Virus record (IMG/VR): IMGVR_UViG_3300005527_004037
Location: 1-40,459 of that record
Origin: a virus
Direction: 5' to 3' (one strand)
Length of the DNA: 40,459 bases
Part shown: piece by piece, positions 24,687-39,523 of the stretch
How positions within the stretch are numbered: position 1 is the stretch's first letter
How the letters are laid out: every line of letters begins with the position of its first letter
Position numbers and translations under genes: made by a program
The notes under the pieces: generated by a model
The model's database searches: none
Told to the model about the DNA's origin: nothing
Seen by the model: only the letters and a program-made list of their open reading frames with translations

Positions 24687-25602
24687 TATAGCAGATCTTG
24701 ACGTCGTCTACCTGTCCTATGACGAGCCTCTCAAAGAAGAATTTTGGGTCAAAATACGCAACATGGTCCCCTGGGCCAAACGTGTGGACAGCGTCAAAGG
24801 ATCAGATGCCGCACACAAGGCCGCAGCCGACGCATCAGAAACCGAGCGTTTCATCTTGATAGATGGAGACAATCTTCCCCAAGAAAACTTTTTCAATCTC
24901 ACACTGGAATTTCCAGATGAATCATGGGAGCGTGCTGTGTTGCGGTGGCGTGCTCGCAATCATGTCAATGGTCTGATGTATGGCAACGGTGGGTTGAGTT
25001 CGTGGACCCGAGATTTCGTTCTCAACATGAAAACCCATGAATCCACAGATGGGCGAGACGAAACAGTGGTAGAATTCTGCTTTGATCCACTGTATTGGCC
25101 CATGCATGATTGCTATTCAACAACCTATCCCAATGGATCACCATTCCATGCCTGGCGTGCAGGGTTCCGAGAAGGCGTCAAGATGTGCCTGGATCGTGGG
25201 CGCCGTCCCACAGTGAGTGAATTCAAGGATCGTGTGCATAAACGCAATTTCGATCATCTCACGATATGGCACAACATAGGCTGCGATGTTGAAAATGGAT
25301 TTTGGGCCATAGCCGGTGCCCGTCAAGGCACATACATGACCATGCTTTCTGACTGGGACTATCGAGAAGTGCAGTGGTTTGATACTCTAAAAACGATATG
25401 GGAATCCACAGTGGCTGAACAAGACCCAGCAGGGGTGATTGATTTTTATACCGATCCATTGAGCACACAATTGGGATTACCCATGGCGTTCATGCCCCCG
25501 TTCCAGAGCGCATTTTTCAAGGATCATTACAGATCTAACTGGCAGAATCTCGGCGTAATGACACGTGAGATTGATGTGATCCGACGACAAGAGGGGTGGT
25601 AA
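24673..25602 (+). CDS. Putative glycosyltransferase-like protein with IDGDN motif
   Basis: This 309-aa protein opens with VVYLSYDEP (residues 11-19) and VPWAKRVDSVKGSDAAHKAA (about 32-51). FILIDGDN (60-67) carries the DGD that fits a DxD metal site. WRARNHVNGLMYGNGGLSSW near 90-112 and a HDCYSTTYPNGSPFHAWRAG stretch follow, both Gly/aromatic-rich as in acceptor loops. I recall this family from marine phage genomes without a proven function. It overlaps the previous gene by 14 bases, and its stop shares a TAATG with the next start. It is probably a soluble transferase acting with the neighbouring enzymes. Donor and acceptor are unknown. Confidence 0.55.
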   Translation: MKKVDIADLDVVYLSYDEPLKEEFWVKIRNMVPWAKRVDSVKGSDAAHKAAADASETERFILIDGDNLPQENFFNLTLEFPDESWERAVLRWRARNHVNGLMYGNGGLSSWTRDFVLNMKTHESTDGRDETVVEFCFDPLYWPMHDCYSTTYPNGSPFHAWRAGFREGVKMCLDRGRRPTVSEFKDRVHKRNFDHLTIWHNIGCDVENGFWAIAGARQGTYMTMLSDWDYREVQWFDTLKTIWESTVAEQDPAGVIDFYTDPLSTQLGLPMAFMPPFQSAFFKDHYRSNWQNLGVMTREIDVIRRQEGW

Positions 25603-26546
25603 TGACAGTATCTTTCCAGATCCTTGCAACCAGTGATAAGTTTTGGAACAAAGATGAATTTGTTAGATTTTTGTTTGCTAATCAAGGTCTTCCGATTGAG
25701 ATTACTGTGGCCCCCGAAGCTGTGAGCATGAAAACTTTGGGAGTTTATCGATTATTAGAATCCATGGAACATAAAAATGTTACTGTTATCACGGCCAATC
25801 CATTGGAATCACATCCTTATTATCATATAAAATTTTTAGAAAATCACTGGCCAAAAAAAATTGAATCCATAGATAACAGCATGCATTCTTGGGATCAAAC
25901 GCATGTCTTCTATGCATTGTTTGGGAGACCCACAGCGGCTCGACTGGCTATTGCAGGACATTTAAGACGCTATCACGGCCGTAAAAGCCTGATACATTTC
26001 TCGGCTAATACCGGTGTGGATGATTTGGTGCATTTTGAATTTGACAAACTATTATCTTATCGCATTGAAAGTGTCAAAGACGCCAGTGTGTTGATTGATG
26101 ATCTTCCTTTGTTGTTGTCTAGTCCAGATAGATACACTGACAGTGAAGGTTATGATTTTTCAGATCCGCTGACAAATTACTATAAAAATATTCTAGTTGA
26201 TGTGGTAGTTGAATCACATGTGTCAGGGGAAACTTTTTATGCTACCGAAAAGACTTTTAGACCGATGTGGATGAAAAAACCATTTATTGTTTTTGCCAGC
26301 CGGAATTATCTAGAGTATCTACGGCAGATGGGGTTTAAGACATTTTGGAATTTTTGGAACGAAGACTATGATGGGTTTGATACCAAAGATAGATTGCAAT
26401 CAACACTAAAACTCATTGATGACTTGGTCAAAAAATCTAAGTCAGAATTGTATCACATGTATCAGGATATGCAATCTATTCTAGATCATAACTACAATCT
26501 TCTGCTAGATCAAAAGTATTCAACGGAGATTGTCAATATTGTCTGA
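25602..26546 (+). CDS. TEKT-type glycosyltransferase-like protein, copy 1
   Basis: This 314-aa protein has a C-terminal half with VVVESHVSGETFYATEKT followed by FRPMWMKKPF (about residues 201-228) and GFKTFWNFWNEDYDGFD. The E-x(n)-TEKT-(aromatic)-(R/K)-P block resembles the donor-site region of GT-B transferases such as GT10 fucosyltransferases, which carry a YVTEK-like signature; the match is by motif only. The N-terminal half differs from the two other TEKT proteins in the window. GAGGGG lies five bases before ATG 25602, which overlaps the upstream stop as TAATG; that spacing is why GTG 25596 was not chosen. The gene is clearly AT-richer than its neighbours (one 60-base line counted at 25% GC), which suggests separate origin. 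Confidence 0.5.
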   Translation: MTVSFQILATSDKFWNKDEFVRFLFANQGLPIEITVAPEAVSMKTLGVYRLLESMEHKNVTVITANPLESHPYYHIKFLENHWPKKIESIDNSMHSWDQTHVFYALFGRPTAARLAIAGHLRRYHGRKSLIHFSANTGVDDLVHFEFDKLLSYRIESVKDASVLIDDLPLLLSSPDRYTDSEGYDFSDPLTNYYKNILVDVVVESHVSGETFYATEKTFRPMWMKKPFIVFASRNYLEYLRQMGFKTFWNFWNEDYDGFDTKDRLQSTLKLIDDLVKKSKSELYHMYQDMQSILDHNYNLLLDQKYSTEIVNIV

Positions 26547-27978
26547 ACAAAACAAAGGCGATGAAGTATTACAAGACTTCAAGTCAAAATTCTTAAGTGA
26601 TGCAGAAATAATCAAACAAAAACTCGATACTGTAAGTTCTAGTCTTTGTTTGGCCAAGTGGAAACAAGTCAGTTTACATCTCACCACTGGCCATACCAAT
26701 TCCTGCTATCATCCTCCGTTGCACAAAATACGCATCGAGGACATACAACGCAGTCCATCGGGTATCCACAATACTGAACACAAAAAACAGCAACGCCGAT
26801 TGATGTTAGAAGGCACACGCCCGGGCGAATGTCAGTATTGTTGGAACATGGAAGATCTCGGAGAAATGTCGGATCGTCATTACAGATCCGGAGAACCCTG
26901 GGCGGCTCGTGATTTTGAAAAGATAGTGACCGCGCCATGGGACCAAGATGTCACTCCTAGTTATGTGGAAGTCAATTTCAATTCTGTTTGCAATCTCAAA
27001 TGTAGTTATTGCAGTCCACAATTTTCTACGTCCTGGATGGAAGAAGCAGAACGTCACGGCGCCTGGCCCACTGCTACACCTCATAACGATCCTGCTTACT
27101 TCCAAGGAGATCGCAAACCCATACCTTTTCGTGAACACAATCCCTATCTTGAAGCATTTTGGCAGTGGTGGCCTGCGCTGTATCCGGAACTAGAACATTT
27201 CCGTATGACCGGCGGCGAGCCTATGATGGACAAGAACACTTATAAAGTGTTTGACTATGTGATGGCTCATCACAATCCGCGACTGCATCTTAATGTAACA
27301 TCAAACTTCTGTGCCGACGAACGTCTTTGGCAACGCTACAAAGGTTATGTGAAAATGATCTGCGACAACGAGCGTGTGGAGCATTTCATGCAGTATGTGA
27401 GCCTTGATGCTTGGATGGACCGTGCCGAGTATATACGGCATGGTATGGATTTTGCCCTGTTATGGGATCGTGTGAATCAATTCCTCACTGAAATACCACA
27501 TCGCAGTTCCATCACATTTATCATAACCATGAACAACTTGTCAGTGACTAGTTTCCAGGAACTCATGGTAGGGATGTTGGGATTAAGACAGATCTATTCT
27601 AACACTTATCAGCGTGTTTGGTTCGATACTCCTGTGTTGAGAAATCCAGCCTGGCAGAGCCTGCAGATCTTGCCCGAAAGTTACGCAGACAAACTGGAAG
27701 AAGTTTGGGTTTTCATGATGAAAAATCTCGAAACCGAAGAACGACGATTCAAAGGCTTTAAAGATTACGAACTACAGAGATTGGATAGAGACATCGCGTG
27801 GATGCGAGAAGGAAAGAAACTAGATCCTGATTATGTGCGCCGTCAGCGTGCGGATTGGTTCCGATTTTTCGATGAACATGACCGACGCCGCGGCACGAGA
27901 TTTCTCAAAGTATTCCCAGAAATGGTCGAATGGTGGGCCGATTGTGGATATCTAGCCAAGCAATTAATCAAACAATAA
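26539..27978 (+). CDS. Radical SAM protein with N-terminal twitch-like cysteines, copy 1
   Basis: From TTG 26539 this is 479 aa. The radical SAM motif is CNLKCSYC (Cys 151, 155, 158), which holds the SAM-binding 4Fe-4S cluster, followed by MTGGEPMM, the GGE motif that contacts SAM. Four cysteines before it (37, 56, 98, 101, the last two as CQYC) fit an N-terminal twitch domain with an auxiliary cluster. The end holds DEHDRRRGTRFLKVFPEMVE. It is a close relative of the gene at 33342: both have S-C-(Y/H)-H-P and IHNT/LHNT segments. No ATG is available near the N-terminus. TTG 26530 is the alternative start, but it sits only one base after GGAG. Substrate unknown. Confidence 0.8.
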   Translation: MSEQNKGDEVLQDFKSKFLSDAEIIKQKLDTVSSSLCLAKWKQVSLHLTTGHTNSCYHPPLHKIRIEDIQRSPSGIHNTEHKKQQRRLMLEGTRPGECQYCWNMEDLGEMSDRHYRSGEPWAARDFEKIVTAPWDQDVTPSYVEVNFNSVCNLKCSYCSPQFSTSWMEEAERHGAWPTATPHNDPAYFQGDRKPIPFREHNPYLEAFWQWWPALYPELEHFRMTGGEPMMDKNTYKVFDYVMAHHNPRLHLNVTSNFCADERLWQRYKGYVKMICDNERVEHFMQYVSLDAWMDRAEYIRHGMDFALLWDRVNQFLTEIPHRSSITFIITMNNLSVTSFQELMVGMLGLRQIYSNTYQRVWFDTPVLRNPAWQSLQILPESYADKLEEVWVFMMKNLETEERRFKGFKDYELQRLDRDIAWMREGKKLDPDYVRRQRADWFRFFDEHDRRRGTRFLKVFPEMVEWWADCGYLAKQLIKQ

Positions 27979-27999
27979 ATTATATATTAACCAAGCAAA
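27979..27999 (+). promoter_or_regulatory. AT-rich gap, possible -10 element before the nucleotide-sugar cassette
   Basis: This 21-base gap is one of the few true gaps in the accessory region and contains TATATT (27983-27988). No -35 element and no ribosome site are visible before ATG 28000. It may be a weak promoter or simply the join where the AT-rich cassette entered. Confidence 0.25.
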
Positions 28000-29013
28000 A
28001 TGACTACTGCACTTATCACCGGAATCACAGGCATGGTCGGAAGCCATCTAGCCGATCTGATCCTTAAAGAAACTGACTGGAATATTGTTGGTGTAATAAG
28101 ATGGCGGAGTCCTCTTGACAACATCAATCATTTGATCCCCGATATAAATCAAAAAAAACGCATCATGCTCGAGTATGGTGATTTAAATGATGATCCGTCA
28201 TTGCAAAAAATCATAAAAAATTCAAAGCCCGATTATGTTTTCCACCTTGCGGCACAAAGTTTTCCAAAGACTAGTTTTGATAGTCCTGTAGAAACTCTTA
28301 ACACTAACATCCAAGGCACAGCAAGATTGTTAGAAGCATGTAAAATTCACTGTCCTGACGCAATAATACATGTTTGTGCTAGTTCAGAAGTATTTGGTCG
28401 AGTTCCTAAAGAAAAACTTCCTATAGATGAAAATTGCACTTTTCATCCAGCCTCGCCATATGCTATTAGCAAGGTTGGTACAGACTTGTTGGGAAGATTT
28501 TATGCCGAAGCATACGGATTAAAAGTCATGACCACTAGAATGTTCACACATACCGGTCCGCGTCGCGGAGATGTGTTTGCTGAATCATCTTTTGCCAAAC
28601 AGATCGCTATGATTGAAAAAGGTAAAATAGAACCTGTTGTCAAGGTGGGCAATCTTGATAGTTTACGGACTGTTGCTGATGTCAGAGATGCTGTGCGAGC
28701 TTATCTTATGCTTGTTACCGTAAATCCTGTCCCTGGAGAATATTACAACATAGGAGGCACGCATGTATGCCGAGTGCAGGATATCCTTGATAAGTTAATA
28801 TCATTAAGTGCCTGTCAGGACAGCATACGGGTAGAAGTCGACCTTGACCGATTGCGTCCAATAGATGCAGATCTCCAGATACCAAACACAGAAAAATTTC
28901 GTAAGCATACTGGATGGAAACCGGAAATTACCTTTGATCGGACCATGCAAGATCTACTAGACCATTGGCGAGAGAAGGTTAACGAGATCAATAAAAATTA
29001 TTTGATAAGATGA
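28000..29013 (+). CDS. NAD(P)-dependent sugar-nucleotide 4,6-dehydratase (GDP-mannose/GDP-heptose type)
   Basis: This is a 337-aa short-chain dehydrogenase of the extended type. GITGMVG (residues 8-14) is the Rossmann nucleotide loop, and HLAAQSF (82-88) is typical of GDP-mannose 4,6-dehydratases. CASSEVFG (126-133) and YAISK (154-158, Tyr-x3-Lys) give the catalytic set. RMFTHTGPRRGDVFAES and the spacing to PGEYYNIGG fit the substrate domain. The reaction would give a 4-keto-6-deoxy sugar nucleotide. Because the next genes are an HddA-like kinase and a fucose-synthase-like reductase, a GDP-heptose substrate (as for Campylobacter/Yersinia dehydratases) is as likely as GDP-mannose. The gene is AT-rich (a counted line is 33% GC). 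It overlaps the next start as ATGA. Confidence 0.85.
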   Translation: MTTALITGITGMVGSHLADLILKETDWNIVGVIRWRSPLDNINHLIPDINQKKRIMLEYGDLNDDPSLQKIIKNSKPDYVFHLAAQSFPKTSFDSPVETLNTNIQGTARLLEACKIHCPDAIIHVCASSEVFGRVPKEKLPIDENCTFHPASPYAISKVGTDLLGRFYAEAYGLKVMTTRMFTHTGPRRGDVFAESSFAKQIAMIEKGKIEPVVKVGNLDSLRTVADVRDAVRAYLMLVTVNPVPGEYYNIGGTHVCRVQDILDKLISLSACQDSIRVEVDLDRLRPIDADLQIPNTEKFRKHTGWKPEITFDRTMQDLLDHWREKVNEINKNYLIR

Positions 29014-30005
29014 TCATAGTTAGAACTCCTTATAGAGTAAGTTTTTTCGGAGGCATGACCGACTATCCAGATTGGTATGAGTATCATCCGGGATCAGTAA
29101 TCAGCACCACTATTAACAAATATAGTTTTATTGTTATTAGGAAATTGCCTCAAGTGTTTGATTACAAATATCGCATAAGATATTATGAGGTACAAGAAAC
29201 CAATTCCATAGATGAAATATCTATTCCTGTGATCAGAGAATGTTTGAAGTTTTGTAATATTGATTTTGGTATCGATATTACACATCACGGAGATTTGCCT
29301 AATCGCACAGGCATAGGTTCTAGCAGTAGTTTCACAGTAGGTCTTCTACACGGTCTCTATACCTTGACTAATCAACTCAAGACTAAACGTCAGTTAGCAT
29401 TAGATGCCTTGTATATCGAGCAGAAAGTTTTGAAACAAGATGTGGGTAGCCAAGATCAGGTGGCCGCCGCATTTGGTGGTTTCAATAAAATCAATTTTGG
29501 TGGACATCAAGATTTTACGGTCAATCCCTTGATACTTGATTCTGGCATACACCGAGAATTGGAATCATCAATGCAGATGTTTCATACACAAGATTGCAGA
29601 GAGAGCGGTCAGTTAGCGAAAAAAACTATTGCTTTACTTGGGCAACAAGAAAAAAAATTGCAGGATATGAATGCTTTAACTGATCGAGCGCAGAGTATAT
29701 TGTTTGATGCAAATCAAAACAGACTGACAGACTTTGCCGAGGCTCTAAACGAACAATGGATTCTAAAAAAGGCAATACAGCCCGAATCGACCAATCAGAA
29801 AATTGATGAAATATATGATCGTGCTCTAACAGCAGGAGCTCTGGGAGGTAAGTTGTTGGGGGCAGGCGGTGGTGGATTTATGCTTTTTGTCACACCGCTG
29901 GATGCCAAACAAAAAGTTGAAGAGGCACTAGGATTGACCAGTGTGCCAATTTTATTTGAATATCTAGGTAGTCAGATAATTTATTACGACAATCAGGACA
30001 GATGA
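29010..30005 (+). CDS. GHMP-family sugar kinase, HddA-like (D-glycero-D-manno-heptose 7-phosphate kinase type)
   Basis: This is a 331-aa protein. The N-terminus, RTPYRVSFFGGMTDYPDW (residues 5-22), is the substrate-side motif of HddA-type kinases. The ATP loop DLPNRTGIGSSSSFTVGLL (95-113) is the GHMP signature. DVGSQDQVAAAFGGFNKINF follows, and the C-terminal GGKLLGAGGGGFMLF is the third GHMP motif. HddA phosphorylates heptose 7-phosphate at C1 on the way to GDP-heptose. Fucokinase-type or other sugar kinases of the superfamily cannot be excluded by eye. It sits between a 4,6-dehydratase and a GDP-fucose-synthase-like enzyme, with ATGA overlaps on both sides. GmhA, GmhB and HddC partners are not in this window. 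Confidence 0.8.
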   Translation: MIIVRTPYRVSFFGGMTDYPDWYEYHPGSVISTTINKYSFIVIRKLPQVFDYKYRIRYYEVQETNSIDEISIPVIRECLKFCNIDFGIDITHHGDLPNRTGIGSSSSFTVGLLHGLYTLTNQLKTKRQLALDALYIEQKVLKQDVGSQDQVAAAFGGFNKINFGGHQDFTVNPLILDSGIHRELESSMQMFHTQDCRESGQLAKKTIALLGQQEKKLQDMNALTDRAQSILFDANQNRLTDFAEALNEQWILKKAIQPESTNQKIDEIYDRALTAGALGGKLLGAGGGGFMLFVTPLDAKQKVEEALGLTSVPILFEYLGSQIIYYDNQDR

Positions 30006-30937
30006 ACATGGAAAAACAGTCTAAAATATTTGTAGCAGGTGGATTTCGTGGACACCTTGGATCGGCTATAGTGAGACAATTACGATCACAAGGATATACT
30101 AACATACTATATCCTAGTCCCGAAGAATTAGATCTGAGAAATAAAACACAGGTCGATGCTTGGTTCAATCGGCATAGGCCAGAGTATGTATTTTTAGTAG
30201 CGGCTAAGTTGATAGGACTTTTGAGTCAGGATTGGGGAGAAACAATGCTGTATAACTTAGAAATACAAAACAATGTTTTTGATGTGTCTCGCAAATATCA
30301 GTGTAAAAAACTTTTGTTTACTGGTAGTAGTTCTGCCTATCCCAAAGACTGTCAAATACCTATCACTGAAGATCAACTTTTATCTGGATATTTAGAACCA
30401 ATTAGCGAAGCCTACGCCGTGGCAAAAATTGCTGGGATCAAAATGGCTCAGTATTTTAGAAAACAATGGGGATGTGATTTTATCACAGTGATGCCCGGTA
30501 ACCTTTACGGGCCTAACGATACTTTTGATAATGTCAAATCTCATGTCATGAGTGATTTTATAAGCAAATTTGTCAATGCTGTCAAACGTCAAGACGCCGC
30601 AGTATCTCTTTGGGGAGATGGAAGTCAGGTAAGAGATTTTATGTTTGTGGACGACGCTGCCGACGCTTGTATTTTTTGTATGCAAAATTATTCTGCCAGT
30701 GAGCCAATAAATCTTTCTGCCGGTAATCCAGTTAACCTTAAGACTGCCGCCGATCTAGTAAAGCACTTATCTGGTTTTGCAGGGGATATACAATGGGATA
30801 TCACAAAACCAACAGCTACTATTGTTAGAACTTTAGACAACAGTAAAATAAAATCCATGGGGTGGCAACCAAAATATAATTTATCACAGGGTATAGATAT
30901 CACAATCCAATGGTATAAACAAAATTGTCTATCATGA
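30002..30937 (+). CDS. GDP-L-fucose synthase family epimerase/reductase (Fcl/WcaG-like)
   Basis: This 311-aa extended SDR has VAGGFRGHLGSAI (residues 11-23) as its nucleotide loop, FLVAAKLIGLL (64-74), GSSSAYPK (108-115, the serine of the catalytic set) and EAYAVAKIAGIKMAQYF (136-152, with Tyr 138 and Lys 142). PGNLYGPNDTFD follows. These are the diagnostic blocks of GDP-fucose synthase, which epimerises and reduces GDP-4-keto-6-deoxymannose. Related WcaG enzymes act on the heptose analogue. Together with the two preceding genes it can complete a GDP-6-deoxy sugar. It overlaps both neighbours by ATGA and is AT-rich (a counted line is 37% GC). The reading frame is intact with all key residues present. 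Confidence 0.87.
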   Translation: MNMEKQSKIFVAGGFRGHLGSAIVRQLRSQGYTNILYPSPEELDLRNKTQVDAWFNRHRPEYVFLVAAKLIGLLSQDWGETMLYNLEIQNNVFDVSRKYQCKKLLFTGSSSAYPKDCQIPITEDQLLSGYLEPISEAYAVAKIAGIKMAQYFRKQWGCDFITVMPGNLYGPNDTFDNVKSHVMSDFISKFVNAVKRQDAAVSLWGDGSQVRDFMFVDDAADACIFCMQNYSASEPINLSAGNPVNLKTAADLVKHLSGFAGDIQWDITKPTATIVRTLDNSKIKSMGWQPKYNLSQGIDITIQWYKQNCLS

Positions 30938-31980
30938 TAACTGTTATTGGAACCACGTTCCCACTTGCTTATCACTATGGGCCTTTGGAACGAGAAGTAT
31001 TGCAAAAGACTGCAGAACAAATTGAGTCTAAGTTCAAAGATGAAAAGAATTTATTATTGAATATGACTTGGTTTGGTCCTCAGTTTGATAACGGACAATG
31101 GCAAAAGTTAGAAAAATTGATCTACAAAGATTGCGCTAAATTTGACAATTTGTTTTTGTTATCTACAATCGATCCTGTGTATCTGCGCGAAGATCTAATA
31201 GATAGTATTATCAATCAAATCAAGTGCGAGAAAGTAATACGCATCGGCACATGGGAAAATCAAAAGTATCAATGGAATTGGCACGCGGCAGCCGCCTATA
31301 AGTTAATGACCATACCCACTTTGGATCAAATCAGCCTTCAATCAGTTAAACACGTATTCGTTTGTCTACAACGCAAACCAAGACTACACCGTGTGGAGCT
31401 CACTAATCTTATATTGGCATCTCGTCTTGATCGTAGGGGAATCATTACTTTAGGTGGCGGATCAAAAGAACATGCAGATATCTATGCTGATGGTATGATG
31501 GGCCCTAACATAACATTGGGTGAGAACTTAGATGATTTTATTACAGAGGATGACTGTGGTGGAATTCCTTGCGATTTGTTTGGACTAGGTCCTCTAACTG
31601 TGTGGAAAAATCATTTTTTACATGTGGTCAGCGAAACAGAGTTTAACAATTGGCATCCCTTGTTTGTAACTGAGAAAACATGGAAACCAATGATTGGATT
31701 AAGACCTTTTGTCATACATGGGCAGACTAGGATATATCCATGGTTGCGTAATCGAGGATTTAAAACATTTAACCATTATTGGCCACATGTTGATATAGAA
31801 ACCTCAGAGGACCAGCATGGTAGTGTGATGAGTGTATTACATTGGTTATGCGATATGACTCTGTCAGAGATCGAAGACATCTATCAAGATATGTTGCCCG
31901 ATCTTCGCTATAACCGTGAAAGGTTCATTGAGTTTAGTCGTGAACAATATCACAAAATGCATCATGTATTTGAATCATGA
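30934..31980 (+). CDS. TEKT-type glycosyltransferase-like protein, copy 2
   Basis: This is a 348-aa protein. The first half has an MITVIGTTFPLAYHYG start and a CLQRKPRLHR block (residues 144-153). The second half has VVSETEF (231-237) and TEKTWKPMIGLRPF (246-259), then RGFKTFNHYWPHVD. The same two blocks, with the same order and spacing, are present in the protein at 32333, so these two are true paralogues. The protein at 25602 shares only the second block. The C-terminal block resembles GT-B donor sites of the GT10 type. ATG 30934 overlaps the upstream stop as ATGA, which is why the TTG at 30925 was not chosen. It is likely part of the nucleotide-sugar cassette. Confidence 0.55.
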   Translation: MITVIGTTFPLAYHYGPLEREVLQKTAEQIESKFKDEKNLLLNMTWFGPQFDNGQWQKLEKLIYKDCAKFDNLFLLSTIDPVYLREDLIDSIINQIKCEKVIRIGTWENQKYQWNWHAAAAYKLMTIPTLDQISLQSVKHVFVCLQRKPRLHRVELTNLILASRLDRRGIITLGGGSKEHADIYADGMMGPNITLGENLDDFITEDDCGGIPCDLFGLGPLTVWKNHFLHVVSETEFNNWHPLFVTEKTWKPMIGLRPFVIHGQTRIYPWLRNRGFKTFNHYWPHVDIETSEDQHGSVMSVLHWLCDMTLSEIEDIYQDMLPDLRYNRERFIEFSREQYHKMHHVFES

Positions 31981-32336
31981 CCAGATTGACAGGACTGGTT
32001 CCTAAAAAATGGGGATCTGAATTTATTTGGGCAACTAATAACCAATATTGTGCAAAGTTTTTAAATTTTGAGACCGGTGCCCGCTTCAGTATGCATTTCC
32101 ATCGAGACAAAGATGAAACTTGGTATGTCCAAAATGGCAAATTTCTAATTCGTTGGATAGATACTGATACCGCTGAATCTCATGAAAAAGAATTAAATGA
32201 AGGGGCAACTTGGCACAATCCACCTTGCCAGCCTCATCAGTTGATCTGTATTGAAGCAGGAACAATCATAGAAGTCAGCACACCAGATTCTGTGGAAGAC
32301 AATTATAGAATCGTTCCAGGCGATAATCAGGCATGA
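31977..32336 (+). CDS. Cupin-domain protein, sugar-phosphate isomerase-like
   Basis: This 119-aa single cupin domain has metal ligands in the classic pattern H-x-H-x4-E at His 40, His 42 and Glu 47 (MHFHRDKDETW), with a second-motif His at 87 (QPHQL). VPKKWGSEF at the start and ETWYVQNGKFLIRW resemble the C-terminal isomerase half of mannose-6-phosphate isomerase/mannose-1-phosphate guanylyltransferase. An isomerase or sugar-binding role in GDP-sugar supply is therefore plausible. The catalytic reaction cannot be settled by eye. ATGA overlaps join it to both neighbours. Confidence 0.7.
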   Translation: MTRLTGLVPKKWGSEFIWATNNQYCAKFLNFETGARFSMHFHRDKDETWYVQNGKFLIRWIDTDTAESHEKELNEGATWHNPPCQPHQLICIEAGTIIEVSTPDSVEDNYRIVPGDNQA

Positions 32337-33352
32337 ATGGTAATATTATTGTTGAGCCTGGACTGCCACTTGGGTATCTCGATACAGCAGATGACATCGT
32401 TGTTGACTATCTAAGTGATCGACAAGGGTGTTATGCTATATCCTTGAAGACTCTGGTTATGCGACCAGAGTTGGTGATCAAGAGTTTGGAAAATGGCAGC
32501 ACTATCGCTGTAGAAAAAACAGATGAATCAGTGGCCACTCAGTGGCACATAGTCAAACATCATCTCTACTATACATGGTTCCAAAGAGGATCTCTTAGAT
32601 GGATAACAGGCGGTGATTCTGATCCGGATATACAAAATCTCAACAACGAGCATTTTTTACGGGCCACTATCGGCAGCCAAGAAACCAACCTGGTATTAAG
32701 CCAACAGGTTACTCGACCTTATAAATTTCTTTTTACCAATCGAAAACTGCGTCCGCATAGGAAATACTTGATCGCCAAATTGAAATTTTTTGGATTGTTG
32801 GATCGAGCATTGTGGTCTTGTCTAGAGAACTATGATACATGGGGGCATAGAGATTTCAACAGAGTCTATGTTGAGCATATGGATTTATCCGAAAAATCTT
32901 TGCCATCACGGTATGAAATTCAACCAGAACCATCATGGTTAGATGGCGTGATCTATGCACCACAGTTCAATGACACTTACTTCAGCGTAGTCAGTGAAAC
33001 TGTGTTTGAATATCCGCACAGTTTCCGCACAGAGAAAACCTACAAGCCAATATTAGCGGCACATCCTTTTGTTATTTGTGCCAACATGGGATTCTATCGA
33101 GACCTACATCGCATGGGATTTAGAACATTCGGATCGTTGATCGATGAATCGTTTGATACTATAATAGATGGTAAGGGGAGACTGGACAGATTGATACAAG
33201 AAGTCCAGTGGTTATGCGATCAAGATCTAGACCAATTTTGGATCGAAACACGAGACATCTGTTTATATAACCAACAGCACGCCCAAGAACTACATACTAA
33301 CCAACAGAAAACATTTACTGTAAAATTCCAAAAGTTCATGCATGCCACGTAA
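32333..33352 (+). CDS. TEKT-type glycosyltransferase-like protein, copy 3
   Basis: This is a 339-aa protein. RKLRPHR (residues 137-143) corresponds to the RKPRLHR of the gene at 30934. VSETVF (220-225) and TEKTYKPILAAHPF (233-246) follow, then MGFRTFGSLIDESFD. The N-terminal 120 residues contain several Trp and His residues and no recognised domain. The motif set supports a GT-B-like transferase acting with the nucleotide-sugar cassette. It overlaps the cupin gene by ATGA and the following radical SAM gene by 11 bases. It stands immediately before a radical SAM gene, exactly as the copy at 25602 does. No membrane segment was seen. Confidence 0.55.
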   Translation: MNGNIIVEPGLPLGYLDTADDIVVDYLSDRQGCYAISLKTLVMRPELVIKSLENGSTIAVEKTDESVATQWHIVKHHLYYTWFQRGSLRWITGGDSDPDIQNLNNEHFLRATIGSQETNLVLSQQVTRPYKFLFTNRKLRPHRKYLIAKLKFFGLLDRALWSCLENYDTWGHRDFNRVYVEHMDLSEKSLPSRYEIQPEPSWLDGVIYAPQFNDTYFSVVSETVFEYPHSFRTEKTYKPILAAHPFVICANMGFYRDLHRMGFRTFGSLIDESFDTIIDGKGRLDRLIQEVQWLCDQDLDQFWIETRDICLYNQQHAQELHTNQQKTFTVKFQKFMHAT

Positions 33353-34700
33353 AGACAACGAAACAGATATTGAATACAAACGTCGGGTGATCGATATCAA
33401 ATCCGATAGTTTTTGTGGAGCCAAATGGTATAACGCTACTATTTGGCTAGGCTCCGGCATGACTACCAGTTGCCATCACCCGCTGCCTCACAAAGTCAGC
33501 GTAGAAGATGCAGAAGCCAATCCCAAAGCCTTGCACAATACTGCCAAAAAAAAATCCGAACGAGGCATGATGCAACGCGGCGAGCGCCCACAAGGGTGCG
33601 AATACTGCTGGAAGATTGAAGACATAGGTCGAGACAACGTCAGCGACCGTGTGTATAAGACAGTGATATATTCAGACGAGGACCTTGATGATGCATACCA
33701 TACTCCAGCGGACCAAGACGTGGATTTACAAACCTTGGAAATCGCCTTTGATAGGACTTGCCAGTTCGCTTGTTCTTATTGCAATCCTGCTTTTAGTTCT
33801 ACATGGGTTCGGGATATTAAACAACACGGTGCTTACACCGGCCTGGTATCAGATGGTCGTAATCATTTCACTCACGCTCATGACAGCAGTCAGTTGTATA
33901 CATTCAATGATCGGAATCCTTATGTGGACGCATTTTTCCAGTGGTGGGAATCAGACCTACATAGAACACTGAAAGAACTGCGCATCACCGGTGGTGAACC
34001 ACTGATGAGCGGATATACCTGGAAGTTGTTGGATTGGTTCCAACAAAATCGCGGACGTTCGCAAACACGCCTGGCCATCAACTCAAATCTTGGCATGGAA
34101 TATGATGTGATAGAACGTGCTATCAATGCCTGCGAAGATGTAGAACTGGATCTGTATACTTCCAATGAGAGCATCGGTCCTCATGCTGAATATATCCGCG
34201 ATGGTTTGAACTATGGACAGTGGACCGACAACATGGAACGCATCATGCAGAGTAAAAAACTGCGAGGCTTGCATGTGATGTGTACCATTAATGCCTTGTG
34301 CCTGGAAAGCCTGCCAGAGTTCCTGACCTATCTCATGTTATGGAAACAGGACCATGGTTCGGACTTTCCTAACTTCACGCTGAACATCCTGAGATTTCCC
34401 AGTTTCCAATCACCACTGGTTTTGCCTGATCACATCCGTATGCGTCATAGAGATCGATTGCAGGCCTGGTTAGATCGCTGGACTGACAATGTCATGATGC
34501 ATGAACACGAACGCAATCACATGCAACGATTGATAGATTATCTTGACGTGGTCAAGACTCCGCATTCAGATGCATTTGATATGCCGCGATTGCACAACGA
34601 TTTTAAACAATTTTACGAGCAATATGATCGGCGCCGTGGCAAAAATTTCCGCAGGACTTTTCCTGCATTGAGTGAGTGGTATGACACAATATCAATATAA
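33342..34700 (+). CDS. Radical SAM protein with N-terminal twitch-like cysteines, copy 2
   Basis: This 452-aa protein has the radical SAM motif CQFACSYC (Cys 140, 144, 147) with RITGGEPLM downstream. The N-terminal cysteines at 25, 44, 86 and 89 (CEYC) match those of copy 1 in order and spacing, as do the SCHHPLPHK and ALHNTAKKK segments and the end DRRRGKNFRRTFPALSEWY. Copies 1 and 2 form one subgroup; the three that follow form another. The enzyme should cleave SAM to start radical chemistry and carry an extra cluster in the twitch domain. The substrate is unknown. Base composition returns to that of the structural genes (a counted line is 52% GC), unlike the cassette before it. Confidence 0.82.
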   Translation: MPRKDNETDIEYKRRVIDIKSDSFCGAKWYNATIWLGSGMTTSCHHPLPHKVSVEDAEANPKALHNTAKKKSERGMMQRGERPQGCEYCWKIEDIGRDNVSDRVYKTVIYSDEDLDDAYHTPADQDVDLQTLEIAFDRTCQFACSYCNPAFSSTWVRDIKQHGAYTGLVSDGRNHFTHAHDSSQLYTFNDRNPYVDAFFQWWESDLHRTLKELRITGGEPLMSGYTWKLLDWFQQNRGRSQTRLAINSNLGMEYDVIERAINACEDVELDLYTSNESIGPHAEYIRDGLNYGQWTDNMERIMQSKKLRGLHVMCTINALCLESLPEFLTYLMLWKQDHGSDFPNFTLNILRFPSFQSPLVLPDHIRMRHRDRLQAWLDRWTDNVMMHEHERNHMQRLIDYLDVVKTPHSDAFDMPRLHNDFKQFYEQYDRRRGKNFRRTFPALSEWYDTISI

Positions 34701-35940
34701 TTCCGCAGATTTAGTCCGACCAACGGATCTCAACGATCGCGAACAATTTCTGCTGAAAGACAGCAAAACATTCTGTATCTATCCTTGGATACACCTGCAT
34801 GCTTATCCCACAGGTGAAGCCTATCCTTGCTGTCATGCAGAGATGCGATACCCAGTGGGCGATTGCAGAAAGAATACCTTGGCCGAAATTTGGCAAGGTC
34901 CGTCCATGACACAGTTGCGAGAAGACATGTTAGCCGAACGGCCCAACCCGGCCTGTGGTCGATGCTATGAACAAGAGGAATCGGGATTTTTTTCAGGTCG
35001 GAGATCAGCCAACAAACATCACGGTCATCACATCAAGAAATTAGAAAGCAATCCGTTTGAGATGACTTATTGGGATATACGTTTCAGTAATCTTTGCAAT
35101 CTCAGTTGTCGCAGTTGTGGGCATATCTTTTCCAGTTCATGGTATCAAGATCAGATCAAGTTAGCCGGTCCTGAATGGGCCAAACACAATAGACCTTTGA
35201 ACATTGCAGGTCGCGATCCCGAAGATATGTGGAACCAATTGTTACCGCATATTGATTATGTAGAGCAGATATATTTTGCAGGTGGCGAGCCTCTGATGAT
35301 GGATGAGCACTATCGCATCCTGGAAGAATTAGAACGCAGAGAACGATTTGATGTGCGCCTGATCTACAATACAAACTTCACGCAAGTCAAACTCAAAGAT
35401 CGATATGTGTTTGACTATTGGAAAAAGTTTAAGAGTGTAGCAGTAGGAGCCAGCCTGGATGCCATGGACTTGCGTGCTGAATACATACGCAATGGTACCA
35501 ATTGGAACACAGTAGAAGATAATCGTCGTAGGATGATAGATATCTGCCCCAACGTAGATTTCTATATTTCTCCTACGCTGAGTATCATGAACGCATGGCA
35601 TCTACCTGATTTTCATAAATCTTGGGTAGAGCAAGGACTGATACGTGCGCAGGATCTCAATGTCAATATCTTGCAAGATCCAGCACACTATAGAATAGAC
35701 ATAGCACCTATGAAATACAAACAACGTCTAAGGATACGCTTTGAAGAGCACCTTGATTGGTTGAGAACACAAGATCCTTTGCAACGTGCCACGGTGGGTT
35801 TTGAATCGGCTATCAATTTTATGATGGGGTCAGATAACACTCAATTACTGGAGGTATTCTGGCGCAAGACTCACGAACTAGACGCCATCCGCGGACAGAA
35901 TCTGCTGTCTGTGATACCCGAACTGGAGGCCTTGCAATGA
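34681..35940 (+). CDS. Radical SAM protein with N-terminal twitch domain, copy 3
   Basis: This 419-aa protein opens with FCIYPWIHLHAYPTGEAYPC (Cys 32 and 50), then CGRC (92-95), the typical N-terminal twitch pattern. TLAEIWQGPSMTQLREDML is similar to the 'L.eiw....m..lR..M' strip found in SPASM/twitch proteins. CNLSCRSC (Cys 139, 143, 146) and YFAGGEPLM give the radical SAM core. The end has DAIRGQNLLSVIPELEAL. ATG 34681 is chosen over GTG 34672; it overlaps copy 2 by 20 bases. SPASM/twitch enzymes often act on peptides or bulky substrates, so a peptide or protein-linked target is possible here, which is inference. Confidence 0.85.
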   Translation: MTQYQYNSADLVRPTDLNDREQFLLKDSKTFCIYPWIHLHAYPTGEAYPCCHAEMRYPVGDCRKNTLAEIWQGPSMTQLREDMLAERPNPACGRCYEQEESGFFSGRRSANKHHGHHIKKLESNPFEMTYWDIRFSNLCNLSCRSCGHIFSSSWYQDQIKLAGPEWAKHNRPLNIAGRDPEDMWNQLLPHIDYVEQIYFAGGEPLMMDEHYRILEELERRERFDVRLIYNTNFTQVKLKDRYVFDYWKKFKSVAVGASLDAMDLRAEYIRNGTNWNTVEDNRRRMIDICPNVDFYISPTLSIMNAWHLPDFHKSWVEQGLIRAQDLNVNILQDPAHYRIDIAPMKYKQRLRIRFEEHLDWLRTQDPLQRATVGFESAINFMMGSDNTQLLEVFWRKTHELDAIRGQNLLSVIPELEALQ

Positions 35941-37148
35941 AAATACCACACGAGAAATTCTGTGTGTTACCGTGGGTTAGCTTAGAAACCAGTCCCATAG
36001 GCACAGTGAGACCTTGCTGTTTGGCCATGGACGAGATAGTAGATGATCAAGGGAAAAAATTCCAACTTACAAACTCTACCTTTGACCAGATACAGAACAG
36101 CCAACATCTAAAAAATCTGCGTCAGCAGTTTTTAGATGGCCAGCAACCACAGACCTGTCGTAGATGTTGGCAAGAAGAACGTGCCGGTCGTACCAGTAAA
36201 AGGATGCATACTCTAGATAGGCTCAAACATATGGGCATTTCTGACAATTGGACAGCAGATGCTAAACCTTTGATGTTTTTGGATCTCAAATTAGGTAATA
36301 TCTGTAATCTCAAATGCCGCATCTGTGGTTCATGGTCTTCGTCGACTTTTGCTTCAGAAGAGTTGAACTTTATTGTTGATAGAGAAGATAAAAAGAAAAG
36401 TTTCCATTATCAAATGTTACGTGATGGAGCATGGCCGCGCAACAGCGAGCAGTTTTGGCACGAACTGGATTCGGCCATGGCCCAAGTCCGATACATTGAG
36501 TTCACTGGTGGCGAACCTTTCATGATCCGAGAGCATTTTGATCTACTGCGCCGCCTGGTAGACCGTGGATATGCTCATCAAATTGAAATACACTACAACA
36601 CCAACGGCACACAATATCCCGAAGAAGCCGAAGACATCTGGTGCCATTTCCGGCATGTTGAAATCGCTTTTTCTGTGGATGACGTAGGTGAGAGATTTGA
36701 ATATCAACGTAGCAATGCTGGCTGGTCGGAAATCAATCACAATATCGAACTGTTCCGACAGATGAGATCTAGGATTTCAAACATCACTCTACAGGTGTGT
36801 TGCACCATCAATGCGTTCAACGTGATGTATCTGTCAGACGTGGCACAATGGATCGATCGTCAAAAGTTTGATTTTGTCTACTGGAACATGTTGCATGATC
36901 CCTATTATTTCAGTATTGCTAACCTGCCCGAACGTGCTAAACAGGCAGTTCGACAGAGATTGTCAAGTGAATGGGTGCCCGAGTCATTCCGATCTGAGTT
37001 TGATCGCGTGGTAGATTTCATGATCAATGGTGCCAGCACTGATGGAAATCTTTTGAAGATAAAGATAAAAGATCTAGATCTAAGGCGTCGTCAGAACCTT
37101 TCACAGATAGCGCCGGAGTTAGCACGAGTGATAGATTATGAAGTCTGA
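35937..37148 (+). CDS. Radical SAM protein with N-terminal twitch domain, copy 4
   Basis: This 403-aa protein has FCVLPWVSLETSPIGTVRPC (Cys 9 and 27), CRRC (74-77), CNLKCRIC (Cys 123, 127, 130) and FTGGEPFM, which together give the same cluster layout as copy 3. The end, DLRRRQNLSQIAPELARV, matches the 'R.......PEL' tail of copies 1-3. GGAGG lies seven bases before the ATG, and the ATG overlaps the previous stop as ATGA. No cysteine of the set is missing, so it is predicted to be active. It may act on the same target as copy 3 or on the next step. Confidence 0.85.
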   Translation: MKIPHEKFCVLPWVSLETSPIGTVRPCCLAMDEIVDDQGKKFQLTNSTFDQIQNSQHLKNLRQQFLDGQQPQTCRRCWQEERAGRTSKRMHTLDRLKHMGISDNWTADAKPLMFLDLKLGNICNLKCRICGSWSSSTFASEELNFIVDREDKKKSFHYQMLRDGAWPRNSEQFWHELDSAMAQVRYIEFTGGEPFMIREHFDLLRRLVDRGYAHQIEIHYNTNGTQYPEEAEDIWCHFRHVEIAFSVDDVGERFEYQRSNAGWSEINHNIELFRQMRSRISNITLQVCCTINAFNVMYLSDVAQWIDRQKFDFVYWNMLHDPYYFSIANLPERAKQAVRQRLSSEWVPESFRSEFDRVVDFMINGASTDGNLLKIKIKDLDLRRRQNLSQIAPELARVIDYEV

Positions 37149-38424
37149 AACACTGTGCATGGCTCCGTGGACACACACATATCTCTCGCCACAGACCGAG
37201 AGGAGGATGTGTTGTGCCAGTCGTGAGCCTGCACAGAACTTTGAACAGTATATAGACACAGCCGCCGGCAGCGGACGTTATATTCCCATCACACTGGATG
37301 AACATTGGAACAGTGAACACATGAAATCTGTGAGACGGCGCATGATGGCCGGAGAGACCTTGCCAGAGTGTGCGGTGTGCAATGAGAAGTTATTGAATAC
37401 AGATGTCTATCGCAGTTACTTTTGGGGACTGTTTGGTCACAAGTATGAGGAAGCCATGGCAGCCACCACACCCGACGGTGTAACCACACTGAAACCAGTG
37501 AGCTGGGACTACAGATTTAGTAATCTTTGCAACTTTAAATGTCGCATGTGCGGAGACATGCTTTCCAGCTCTTGGGAAACTGAAGAGAAAAAACACGACA
37601 TGGTAGACTGGTCAAATCCCAAAAACAACTGGATGCGGCCTGATGTCAAACGTGAAATCATACAGTTCCAGGACACACAGGTAGAAGCAGAGTTTGCTCA
37701 AGCAGTAGAAGAACATCGTGTAGAAGAAATCTATTGGGTGGGCGGAGAGCCGCTGATGTATGAACAGCATTGGCGCTATATGAAAAGAATCATTGAACTG
37801 GGTGATGGCCCAAGACTTTATGCAAGATACAATACCAACCTTAGCCGCGTGGATTATAATGGGATTAGTCTTTATCGTGATTTGCTGGCAAATATACGAG
37901 ACTTCCAAATCTGTGCAAGCATCGATGGAACAGGACCCATCGGAGAATACATCAGAACCGGTTTGGCCTGGCCCGTATTTTTAGAAAACTTTAAACGTGG
38001 CCTAGAAATCGCACGACATCGCAGACAGATGCGATTGGACTTTACTTTGACTCTGCCAGGTTTGTTTGAAGTTGAGTCGATGCAACGCACAGCCGATGAA
38101 CTAGGTGTTGACATCTTGGCCAAAGTTGTGTTTAGTTTTACTCCGGACATTTTAATGAGTCCGCTGGCATTGCCTAGAGAAATATTACATCGCAAAGTGG
38201 ATGAGATAGTGCCTGCCACACGTGGCGCACTACGAGATGTTTTACTACAACTCAAGCAAAGACCCACGTTTGCGGAACAATGGCCTGATCAATATCAAGC
38301 AGGATTGATCAAAGGCAAGCGCAGGATTTTAGAACTAGAAAAGATACGTGGTGATCAATATACCATGGCACATATATTACAACAAAATCAGGACATGTAT
38401 GATTGGTGGCAAGATATTAGATAG
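37138..38424 (+). CDS. Radical SAM protein with N-terminal twitch domain, copy 5
   Basis: This 428-aa protein has LCMAPWTHTYLSPQTERRMC (Cys 7 and 25), CAVC (78-81), FSNLCNFKCRMCGD (Cys 131, 135, 138) and YWVGGEPLM. The segment between CAVC and the core is longer than in copy 4 and contains KYEEAMAATTPDG. The tail has LEKIRGDQYTMAHILQ, a weaker form of the shared C-terminal strip. It overlaps copy 4 by 11 bases and the next gene by 26. It lies nearest to the 374-aa unknown protein, the 33-aa protein and the carbamoyltransferase, so those are its likeliest partners. Confidence 0.85.
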   Translation: MKSETLCMAPWTHTYLSPQTERRMCCASREPAQNFEQYIDTAAGSGRYIPITLDEHWNSEHMKSVRRRMMAGETLPECAVCNEKLLNTDVYRSYFWGLFGHKYEEAMAATTPDGVTTLKPVSWDYRFSNLCNFKCRMCGDMLSSSWETEEKKHDMVDWSNPKNNWMRPDVKREIIQFQDTQVEAEFAQAVEEHRVEEIYWVGGEPLMYEQHWRYMKRIIELGDGPRLYARYNTNLSRVDYNGISLYRDLLANIRDFQICASIDGTGPIGEYIRTGLAWPVFLENFKRGLEIARHRRQMRLDFTLTLPGLFEVESMQRTADELGVDILAKVVFSFTPDILMSPLALPREILHRKVDEIVPATRGALRDVLLQLKQRPTFAEQWPDQYQAGLIKGKRRILELEKIRGDQYTMAHILQQNQDMYDWWQDIR

Positions 38425-39523
38425 ATTGCAGATTGATCTACAAAATCGTCATACTGGCGATCTACTGCCAGTATATGTGGACATCTATGATAACTCTCTC
38501 AGTCATAAATGGCTGTCAGCACTCAATGATCTATTGCGGAAAGATTATCATCTAGAAAAAAACTATTGTTTCTTTGGGTTTGTCGATCATGCTCGCAACG
38601 GTTCCTATATACTAGAGCAGGTCAATCTCAGTATAGCGGCAATCAATCAAGCCAATCTTGGTTATCACATCGACGACTATTTTGATATGGCGAATTGTAT
38701 CACAGATACACCTATAGATGGTCGCGCAGCCGGTCGCAATATCATACATGACAAGTTCAACTGGTTGCATAGATATTTTGAAGATTTACAAGGTGTCAGC
38801 GGCTCTCCCAAAGAATACTATCTAAAAGCTAATGCTGCCACACGCTGGCATATCCGGCAATTGAATTTATTGTGTCACGAATTTGAATCTTGGGCTCTCA
38901 GTTATCGAAAACAGATTGAAGCGCCCGCTTGGCAAAGGCCCAGTCAACTGATGTGTTGGCTTAATGCACCAAGATTTGTGTTAGACGAAAAAGACTACGA
39001 GCTGTTTGGTATAGAAACTATCAATCGACCCATAGGCGGAGTATTTGTAGGTGTGAACAAAGCAGTGGGCAAACATCATTGGGAAGTGTTCCAGGATGAA
39101 GGACGTGACAGTCGTGTGGGTGAGTTAATTTCAACTACCATGCGTAGCCAGACTGAGGCAGCAGGAGACTTTGATATAGAGTGGGCTAACAATCCTGGCA
39201 ACTACGAATGGCAAAAGATAAGATTACAAGAGTTCCGTGAATGGCTAACAGTGAATGGATTTGATCCCAATGACAAAAGTTTAACTATTGGGCATCCGCA
39301 AATCGGTCAAGTGGATCTCATTGATACCTTTTGGACAAATGATTATCAATCCATATGGAGCCGTTTAAATACTCATCTAGATGTCTACAGAGTTAAAACC
39401 AGTGATGCCGAATGTGTCTATGACTATTGCTGGAGTGATCCTGATTATCAAACTCGACAGATACAAATCATAGGAGGAAAAAATGAAATGGTTAACAAAC
39501 TTGATCAACCGGATCAAACTTGA
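38399..39523 (+). CDS. Conserved hypothetical protein, 374 aa
   Basis: From ATG 38399 (AGGA five bases before) the protein starts MIGGKILDRLQID. It contains VYVDIYDNSLSHKWLSALND, LEKNYCFFGFV, a helical AATRWHIRQLNLLCHEFESW segment and a Pro/Trp-rich strip, SQLMCWLNAPRF. Then come GGVFVGVNKAVGKHHWEVF, DFDIEWANNPG and LTIGHPQIGQVDL. His, Asp and Gly-rich blocks in the C-terminal half look like an active or metal site, but I cannot assign a family. I recall similar proteins beside radical SAM clusters of marine phages. The codon texture matches the radical SAM genes. An earlier in-frame start at 38348 would lie deep inside the previous gene and was not used. Confidence 0.6.
   Translation: MIGGKILDRLQIDLQNRHTGDLLPVYVDIYDNSLSHKWLSALNDLLRKDYHLEKNYCFFGFVDHARNGSYILEQVNLSIAAINQANLGYHIDDYFDMANCITDTPIDGRAAGRNIIHDKFNWLHRYFEDLQGVSGSPKEYYLKANAATRWHIRQLNLLCHEFESWALSYRKQIEAPAWQRPSQLMCWLNAPRFVLDEKDYELFGIETINRPIGGVFVGVNKAVGKHHWEVFQDEGRDSRVGELISTTMRSQTEAAGDFDIEWANNPGNYEWQKIRLQEFREWLTVNGFDPNDKSLTIGHPQIGQVDLIDTFWTNDYQSIWSRLNTHLDVYRVKTSDAECVYDYCWSDPDYQTRQIQIIGGKNEMVNKLDQPDQT
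39472..39477 (+). promoter_or_regulatory. Perfect Shine-Dalgarno site of the 33-aa gene
   Basis: AGGAGG lies five bases (AAAAA) before the ATG at 39483, inside the end of the 374-aa gene. It is the strongest ribosome site in the window and is the main proof that the short gene is real. Confidence 0.75.

Follow-up and report, generated by a model that had tools for sequence, protein, structure and literature searches.

Why does a phage keep five radical S-adenosylmethionine (SAM) enzymes in one operon? The question is raised by a stretch of 40,459 nucleotides of viral DNA (IMG/VR virus record IMGVR_UViG_3300005527_004037, positions 1 to 40,459; here called the window), which encodes five such enzymes, denoted A to E, within positions 26539-38424. 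A first-pass annotation, made from the sequence alone, had proposed five distinct roles for these enzymes, and had named the sugars of a neighbouring GDP cassette, fibre proteins or a 33-amino-acid (33-aa) protein as candidate targets. We find that the array is real and conserved. It is built from a known protein family, keeps its members in a fixed order across related phages, and lies in an operon of fibre, putative glycosyltransferase and carbamoyltransferase genes, where it may tailor a surface glycan.

Five members of a named radical SAM family

The five genes are listed below with their scores against the NCBIfam model NF033640 and their clade support in the tree described in the next section.

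26539..27978, + strand: radical SAM enzyme A (305.7 bits; TTG start, alternative in-frame TTG at 26530; clade A 100/100)
33342..34700, + strand: radical SAM enzyme B (296.9 bits; clade B 100/99)
34681..35940, + strand: radical SAM enzyme C (391.1 bits; AlphaFold model; clade C 100/98)
35937..37148, + strand: radical SAM enzyme D (342.7 bits; clade D 100/99)
37138..38424, + strand: radical SAM enzyme E (284.4 bits; clade E 100/100)

NF033640, or N_Twi_rSAM ('twitch domain-containing radical SAM protein'), has a curated cut-off of 170 bits. All five proteins exceed it (284.4-391.1 bits), with matches running from model position 1 or 2 to 387-398 of 398. The N-twitch family is already named, and the array is built from this known family; what is seen here is a set of five fixed paralogues in a syntenic array. 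No reaction was found for N_Twi_rSAM, whose model name and kind state none, and no paper in the literature searched contained 'N_Twi_rSAM' or 'NF033640'.

The reported cysteine pattern of C-x17/18-C, CxxC and CxxxCxxC, followed by a GGE motif and with no cysteine lost, was confirmed by the coordinates, the alignment and NF033640. The cysteines are at positions 37, 56, 98, 101, 151, 155 and 158 in A; 25, 44, 86, 89, 140, 144 and 147 in B; 32, 50/51, 92, 95, 139, 143 and 146 in C; 9, 27/28, 74, 77, 123, 127 and 130 in D; and 7, 25/26, 78, 81, 131, 135 and 138 in E. GGE is present in each protein, and all these motifs form invariant columns in the A-E alignment. The cysteine pattern is not a product of chance, because 648 of the 650 complete orthologues of A-E retain it; CxxxCxxC followed by GGE was found in 649 of them.

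Searches with general models were less uniform. The radical SAM domain PF04055 (gathering cut-off 29.5) is scored above the cut-off by D (43.5) and E (31.9), and below it by A (21.5), B (21.7) and C (26.2). The SPASM domain PF13186 is above gathering in C and D and below the cut-off in E, and the matching stretch lies near the N-terminus of all three. In all five proteins the four twitch cysteines are located N-terminal to CxxxCxxC, not in the C-terminal placement typical of SPASM/twitch domains. Against the prokaryotic viperin NCBIfam model (cut-off 180) the best score of A-E was 32.7 bits; scores against the MoaA and QueE models were also far under the cut-offs, and no Pfam match to a peptide-binding RRE domain was found in A-E.

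Five orthologous series in a fixed order

Over the 23.6 kb compared (16539-37975 and 38269-40459), the window shows at least 99.95% identity to G002, an IMG/VR contig of 315,778 bp, indicating that its source is a jumbo myophage; gp25-like and gp6-like baseplate genes are present in the window. For comparison we fetched 160 IMG/VR loci (L006-L165) with the five-copy alignment or with copy A, retaining the best 80 per search; matches from the five-copy alignment were confirmed against C. Genes in these loci and in the window were called by a longest-ORF (open reading frame) script, which missed the small gene x9 in the window, and were grouped, giving 146 distinct contigs with the window's own phage counted once. 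The counts leave out 15 loci from a contig already represented or from the phage of the window, copies truncated at the end of a locus, 7 inserted genes shorter than 90 aa, and 56 extra family members outside A-E, of whose 49 complete copies 40 keep the cysteine pattern.

In 102 contigs, representing 93 clusters at 95% identity of A, a single locus extends from g2, a conserved gene upstream of the array, to x8 or the carbamoyltransferase gene (CT) downstream of it. All five enzymes are present in 99 of these contigs, and the order A-B-C-D-E is contained in 93. The arrangements are ABCDE (85 contigs), ABCED (6), ABCCDE (3), ABCDDE (3), ABE (3), ABBCDE (1) and ACBCDE (1). Since the loci were fetched via A and C, the presence of these two is not independent evidence; the counts for B and E (102/102) and D (99/102) are freer.

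A tree of 66 proteins places every one of A-E in a single clade of its own with 100% bootstrap support, and the five are thus ancient paralogues. A is sister to B (98/86), and C to E (98/86). Of the two subgroups that the first-pass annotation had drawn, A with B and C with D and E, the first is therefore recovered together with a C/E pair, but the node that joins D with C and E has little support (83/42) and also includes two other copies. The ratio of non-synonymous to synonymous substitution (dN/dS) between the window and five relatives was 0.06-0.09 in the 3 of 25 radical SAM comparisons in which dS was measurable, the other 22 being saturated. With the single clades and the conserved cysteines, this fits purifying selection on five separate enzymes. 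Median identity to the window over 89 loci was 64-72% for A-E and 72% for g2, as compared to 39% for f5, 41% for g3, 48% for g4, 57% for f7 and 55% for CT, while f11, found in 46 of the 89 loci, reached 80%. The enzymes are thus more constant than f5, f7, g3 and g4. The notion of five distinct roles is supported by the single clades, by the presence of all five in nearly all contigs, and by the low dN/dS where this could be measured.

A second set of loci was fetched with g2 as bait (80 best matches kept; some contigs shared with the first set). A family member on the same strand lies downstream of g2 in 77 of the 80; of the three loci without one, two run out of sequence within 1.1 kb, and the third, L215, has 10 kb and no member. 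Among the 54 loci with at least 9 kb downstream, 30 have the full A-E series, 10 have the start of it (perhaps cut), 13 have other sets such as r-C-C-C, and 1 has none, so that the number five belongs to one large lineage. In a second lineage (L227, L231-L234, L247, L248 and L251) the genes after g2 are an unassigned family member and between one and three copies of the C type, in place of A-E.

The array lies in a fibre, glycosyltransferase and carbamoyltransferase operon

The gene order around the array is f11, f7, f5, f6, g3, g4, x9, g2, array, x8, 33-aa peptide, CT. The constant genes outside the array are the following.

19281..19883, + strand: f11, conserved protein without assigned function, preceding the fibre gene (phrog_11259; no Pfam match)
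19933..21360, + strand: f7, tail-fibre-like (borderline Peptidase_G2 PF11962, 25.9 bits versus 25; tail fibre PHROGs)
21372..22349, + strand: f5, fast-evolving likely fibre protein and candidate acceptor (function by eye)
22421..22732, + strand: f6, small conserved protein of unknown function (76/80 g2-retrieved loci)
22672..23550, + strand: g3, putative glycosyltransferase (DxD-like motif by eye; likely start ATG 22729)
23534..24373, + strand: g4, putative glycosyltransferase (by eye)
24339..24686, + strand: x9, small conserved protein of unknown function (71/80 g2-retrieved loci; identified in the window from its place and by inspection)
24673..25602, + strand: g2, conserved putative GT-A-like enzyme (IDGDN motif by eye)
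38399..39523, + strand: x8, conserved protein without assigned function, located between E and CT (adjoins E in 92/95 contigs)
39483..39584, + strand: 33-aa basic peptide (preceded by AGGAGG; overlaps the CT start by 4 bp)
39581..40459, + strand: CT, carbamoyltransferase, cut by the window end (PF02543; 495 aa in L169)

From f6 to x8 the genes overlap, except for a 21-bp gap after A, and the largest gap between f5 and CT is 71 bp. In the loci fetched with g2, the genes f7, f5, g3 and g4 were found upstream of g2 in 80 of 80. A full-length copy of CT scores 120.2 bits against PF02543 and 174 bits against PF16861, both above the cut-off; the carbamoyltransferase family to which it belongs acts on sugars. 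For x8 there was no INPHARED match, and profile searches of the PDB with g1 (a glycosyltransferase type described below), g2, g3 and x8 gave no significant match. In an isolated-phage collection g2, f5 and A had no match at 1e-5, and x8 and g3 none at 1e-3; C and D gave weak matches to no more than 3 and 4 records, respectively, and CT matched 134.

The operon also occurs without the array. In four loci (L361, L375, L353 and L415) the order is f6-g3-g4-g2-g2-peptide-CT with no family member between, f5 being seen in L361 and L353. The contigs G033, G034 and G035 hold no family member over the cut-off, but are fragments of 20-31 kb; in G036 four are present, all outside L415. Between g2 and x8/CT, then, the array is a block that may be present or absent.

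Some further observations concern genes next to the operon. A 4835-aa protein with 0.3% cysteine is encoded upstream of the fibre genes (4605-19112, + strand), and a large gene judged by its place to be the same runs off the edge of 54 loci. In L169 (15750-16805) a family-13 protein, amidinotransferase-like by eye (a homologue has no Pfam match), lies beside two g1-type glycosyltransferases and is convergent with CT. In marine virus AG-345-D19 (MH319727.1, a single-cell piece; L460:5979-7955) a CT 51% identical to that of the window is directly followed by the start of a family member.

Sugar genes vary while the five enzymes do not

Six other genes are located between A and B, and one more between g2 and A. 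All of these are variable inserts.

25596..26546, + strand: g1-type glycosyltransferase (same sequence family as 32333-33352; GT-B fold suggested by this relative)
28000..29013, + strand: GDP-mannose 4,6-dehydratase-like (PF16363, E 4.1e-73)
29010..30005, + strand: GHMP-family kinase (PF00288, PF08544)
30002..30937, + strand: NAD-dependent epimerase/dehydratase family, GDP-fucose-synthase-like by eye (PF01370, E 1.4e-48)
30934..31980, + strand: g1-like glycosyltransferase (gene family 21; TEKT.KP motif by eye)
31977..32336, + strand: cupin (PF07883)
32333..33352, + strand: g1 glycosyltransferase, predicted GT-B fold (model with predicted local distance difference test score, pLDDT, 86.3 and predicted template modelling score, pTM, 0.87)

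No Pfam glycosyltransferase match was found at E 0.01 in 32 members of the g1 type, and only the fold revealed its class. The g1 model is closest to an alpha-1,3-fucosyltransferase (2nzw; Z 13.1, root-mean-square deviation 4.3, 264 residues aligned), and it matches GT-B proteins over its full length with Z 10.8-13.1 in the 50 matches listed, which are glycosyltransferases. By this model, g1 is a glycosyltransferase with the GT-B fold.

Across the 102 contigs, 373 genes are inserted in the array, 368 of them on the coding strand of the operon, and 140 are of the g1 type. They are found after g2 (153), A (112), D (73), C (16), B (10) and E (9). Pfam matches in 146 other non-redundant inserts included radical SAM (15), the GDP-mannose dehydratase/epimerase type (9), DUF6071 (7; a member scanned separately also matches GDSL), hexapeptide transferase (3), GDSL lipase (3), AMP-binding (3) and DegT aminotransferase (2). 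These counts are among the first 25 of the 65 families listed, and single matches included unrelated ones, such as alternative oxidase.

The GDP cassette of the window (28000-30937) is one such variable insert. In 3 of the 102 contigs no called gene is inserted between g2 and x8 or CT, and in 17 more the only inserts are g1-type glycosyltransferases; array members are still present in both groups. The array is therefore independent of the GDP cassette, and the suggestion that sugars of this cassette are an obligatory target does not hold. The sugar genes between A-E vary; the five enzymes do not.

Enzyme class and supply of radical chemistry

SPASM and twitch domains have been described as C-terminal, and in the available text of the same papers the auxiliary cluster of BtrN (2-deoxy-scyllo-inosamine dehydrogenase) is held by four cysteines and is the likely electron acceptor in a two-electron oxidation (PMC6231123, PMC9012708). 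The four-cysteine pattern of BtrN and other twitch enzymes, CX9-15GX4C followed by CxxC, is common to nearly all copies of A (141/141), B (132/132), C (132/136) and D (123/125). E lacks the motif glycine, with only 3 of 116 copies matching, and the twitch stands before the radical SAM core here, not after it. Profile positions 15-92 align weakly to the C-terminal twitch of BtrN (residues 184-258), with E 0.0024 for the whole sequence and no stretch significant alone. By analogy, the four N-terminal twitch cysteines fit a BtrN-like, fully ligated cluster, and we infer that the enzymes are oxidising or epimerising, with a fully held auxiliary cluster.

We also looked for accessory functions in 28 large contigs, chosen by size. 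An Fe-S carrier (PF01521) is encoded in 17 of these, with two copies in G002 (L172:10722-11045, corresponding to G002:129721-130023, and G002:57080-57388). A nucleosidase gene of the PF01048 family (one member tested) lies beside D/E in 6 loci of 5 contigs, and could, judging from its family, remove 5'-deoxyadenosine; such a gene was seen at L095:15265-15831, with family members in L025, L026, L031/L094 and L093. The Fe-S carrier and the nucleosidase beside D/E support the notion that radical chemistry really takes place in the cell, and the retained cysteine pattern and the low dN/dS, where measurable, likewise speak for active enzymes.

A proposed tailoring line for a surface glycan

What, then, may the five enzymes act on? 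The reading that we prefer, with a probability slightly better than even, is that A-E tailor a glycan of the fibres or of the host surface. The operon of this jumbo phage would make and decorate a surface glycan, with A-E as a five-enzyme radical SAM tailoring line in it: the fibre genes f11, f7, f5 and f6 would be followed by the putative core glycosyltransferases g3, g4 and g2, then by the array with exchangeable glycosyltransferase and nucleotide-sugar genes between its members, and finally by x8, CT and the small peptide. For cluster ligation, substrate, reaction and carrier we infer the following. The CxxxCxxC cluster of each enzyme would cut SAM, giving a 5'-deoxyadenosyl radical that would abstract hydrogen from a C-H bond in a sugar built by the constant part of the operon. 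A second electron would pass to the N-terminal twitch cluster, resulting in a net oxidation (compare the ketone made by BtrN) or, with a hydrogen donor, in an epimerisation. Five enzymes would thus address five fixed positions. As carrier of the glycan, the virion fibre is modestly favoured over the host envelope. A more specific version, which we hold only tentatively, is that the assembly line acts on sugars already attached to fibre proteins, with the cassettes exchanged and the radical steps fixed.

Four observations point to a glycan. Glycosyltransferases and sugar genes are exchanged within the array; a carbamoyltransferase of a sugar-acting kind closes the operon; in the distant Vibrio phage K566 family members are interleaved with GT8 genes; and a TylF methyltransferase gene lies 3 kb downstream of one of the scattered copies in G002. 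In K566, an isolated phage, the family members form a row with one GT8 gene among them and a second GT8 farther on, both above the cut-off, and there is a weak match to GT4. NF033640 scores exceed the cut-off for two of the K566 copies and reach 133-155 bits, below it, for three; identity to C and D of the window is 23-25%. No fibre or carbamoyltransferase gene was named in the 31 kb of K566 shown. A further radical SAM/SPASM-like gene of this phage (L168:20439-21701, - strand) is located on the opposite strand beside GT8.

Several findings weigh against the glycan reading. The retention of the array in the 3 contigs without any insert means that its substrate must come from the constant genes, which are weakly identified as glycosyltransferases: in 63 mixed members of g2, g3 and g4, Pfam GT2 matches were found in 3, the best with E 0.0024. 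The fibre genes keep their place as strictly as g2-g4 do, and a protein substrate is therefore compatible with the gene order too. The existence of the operon without the array means that the array is not needed for the operon to work. The AlphaFold model of C (pLDDT 95.2, pTM 0.91) has sugar and nucleoside enzymes (BlsE, Z 13.0; DesII, 12.7) and peptide enzymes (SuiB, 13.0; SkfB, 12.8; anSME, 12.8) as equally close relatives, and this tie means that the fold cannot decide the substrate. In the isolated vibriophage F86 a weakly similar radical SAM gene has no annotated glycosyltransferase nearby. Finally, 11 of the 28 large contigs had no PF01521 match, and PF01048 was found in only 4 of them and not in G002.

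Some of the same findings bring in the best of the alternatives, namely that A-E modify virion proteins of the fibre or baseplate directly (f5, f7, f11 or the 4835-aa protein), introducing D-residues, cross-links or other changes, with the glycosyltransferases serving a separate decoration. The fibre-type genes f7 and f5 are a few genes upstream of g2 in all 80 loci fetched with g2, with a family member downstream in 77 of these; the structural ties to peptide enzymes are as close as those to sugar enzymes; the array is constant while the sugar genes vary; and in the available text on the Aeromonas jumbo phage 332-Vera, eight radical SAM genes are placed in a structural cluster (PMC12390700). 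On the other hand, f5 is far less conserved than A-E, the operon exists without the array, the neighbours of the K566 genes that Pfam could name are glycosyltransferases, and A-E have no RRE-like match. We regard direct protein modification as less likely than the glycan reading. Fibre proteins or their glycans stay among the possible targets, while the other two targets first proposed, the GDP-cassette sugars and the 33-aa protein (see below), are not supported.

Action on a small molecule, a nucleotide or a DNA base, not on a surface glycan or protein, is improbable: BlsE, MoaA and viperin are among the structural relatives, and some scattered copies lie among replication genes (by eye), but the scores against the viperin, MoaA and QueE models are far below the cut-offs, and the location in a fibre, glycosyltransferase and carbamoyltransferase operon argues otherwise, no search aimed at families of DNA-modification genes having been made.

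The 33-aa peptide goes with the carbamoyltransferase

A homologue of the 33-aa peptide was found between x8 and CT in 88 of the 90 loci having both, and the C-terminal half of the peptide is nearly invariant in the 40 sequences shown. In a set of 321 loci, 183 have the peptide and CT, 1 has CT without the peptide, and 17 have the peptide without CT, 15 of these less than 2 kb from an end. Of 200 cases, 118 have the CT start no more than 60 bp from the peptide stop, and 65 have it no more than 2.5 kb away. A pattern scan for the peptide retrieved at least 120 stretches, of which 119 were examined; where at least 4.5 kb of upstream sequence was available (60 stretches), a family member was found upstream in 38 and none in 22. 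No homologue was found beside the CTs of six named cyanophages, pelagiphages and Kyanoviridae phages (L454-L459, flanks 1.5-6 kb).

The peptide goes with the carbamoyltransferase and is probably a small partner of CT. The idea that it is a ribosomal precursor peptide modified by A-E, which its fixed place and invariant half might suggest, is largely refuted and very improbable, as the peptide is present in 183 of 184 CT-bearing loci, often has no family member upstream, and overlaps the CT start. Nor does the operon contain, between f5 and CT, a dedicated gene for another precursor of a ribosomally synthesised and post-translationally modified peptide, the intergenic gaps being no longer than 71 bp and the 33-aa ORF tracking CT; larger or more distant precursors are possible.

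Radical SAM genes in this and other phages

Radical SAM chemistry had been described as rarely invested in by phages, a view that these data do not support. A scan of IMG/VR found at least 597 stretches encoding a relative, not all of which need be of the N_Twi_rSAM family. NF033640 matches, including those below the cut-off, number 5-21 per contig in 20 related contigs and 7-19 in 12 contigs, and G002 has 12 family members over the cut-off and two weak matches.

Phages with many radical SAM genes are also already in print. In the available text, a T4-like marine virus (TARA_ERS488813_N000010) has 12 radical SAM genes and an A-type Fe-S carrier (PMC5332604). It is likewise a large phage with many such genes and a carrier, and the paper, as far as accessible, treats gene content and Fe-S supply and not an array or operon. 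The eight genes of 332-Vera, called highly unusual by the authors, stand among baseplate and tail-fibre genes of a jumbo phage that they place in Chimallinviridae (PMC12390700, available text; compared by description only). Pelagimyophages have a hypervariable tail-fibre region with glycosyltransferases, and their radical SAM cassettes are reported to differ between two genomes (PMC7029224, available text); the radical SAM genes are variable there, whereas here they are fixed while the sugar genes vary. No description of the present five-member array was found in the literature searched, most subscription journals and preprints lying outside that search. As far as searched, three things are new: the fixed five-member array, its setting among the fibre and glycan genes of one operon, and the fact that it depends on neither the sugar cassette nor the 33-aa peptide.

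The five orthologous series in fixed order, the lineage with other sets and the operon fragments without the array form a natural comparison set, and virions with and without the array make the function of the N_Twi_rSAM family directly testable. To our knowledge, the superfamily would gain a new use if one of its enzymes were to act on a glycan-bound substrate. If the proposed reading is true, oxygen-sensitive radical enzymes, given the many matches per contig and the frequent Fe-S carrier, would no longer be a phage curiosity; and if the sugars are indeed attached to the fibre, radical chemistry would remodel a viral glycoprotein.

Two minor observations bear on hosts and on relatives outside this phage group. 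In the phage contig (L169:2-1443), ORFs look by eye like a porin of bacteria and a receptor of the TctC type, a possible sign of a betaproteobacterial host. When relatives were sought in bacteria, two contigs of one Elusimicrobia metagenome-assembled genome (L166 and L167) were retrieved, whose family members are 36-38% identical to C; these contigs may be viral.

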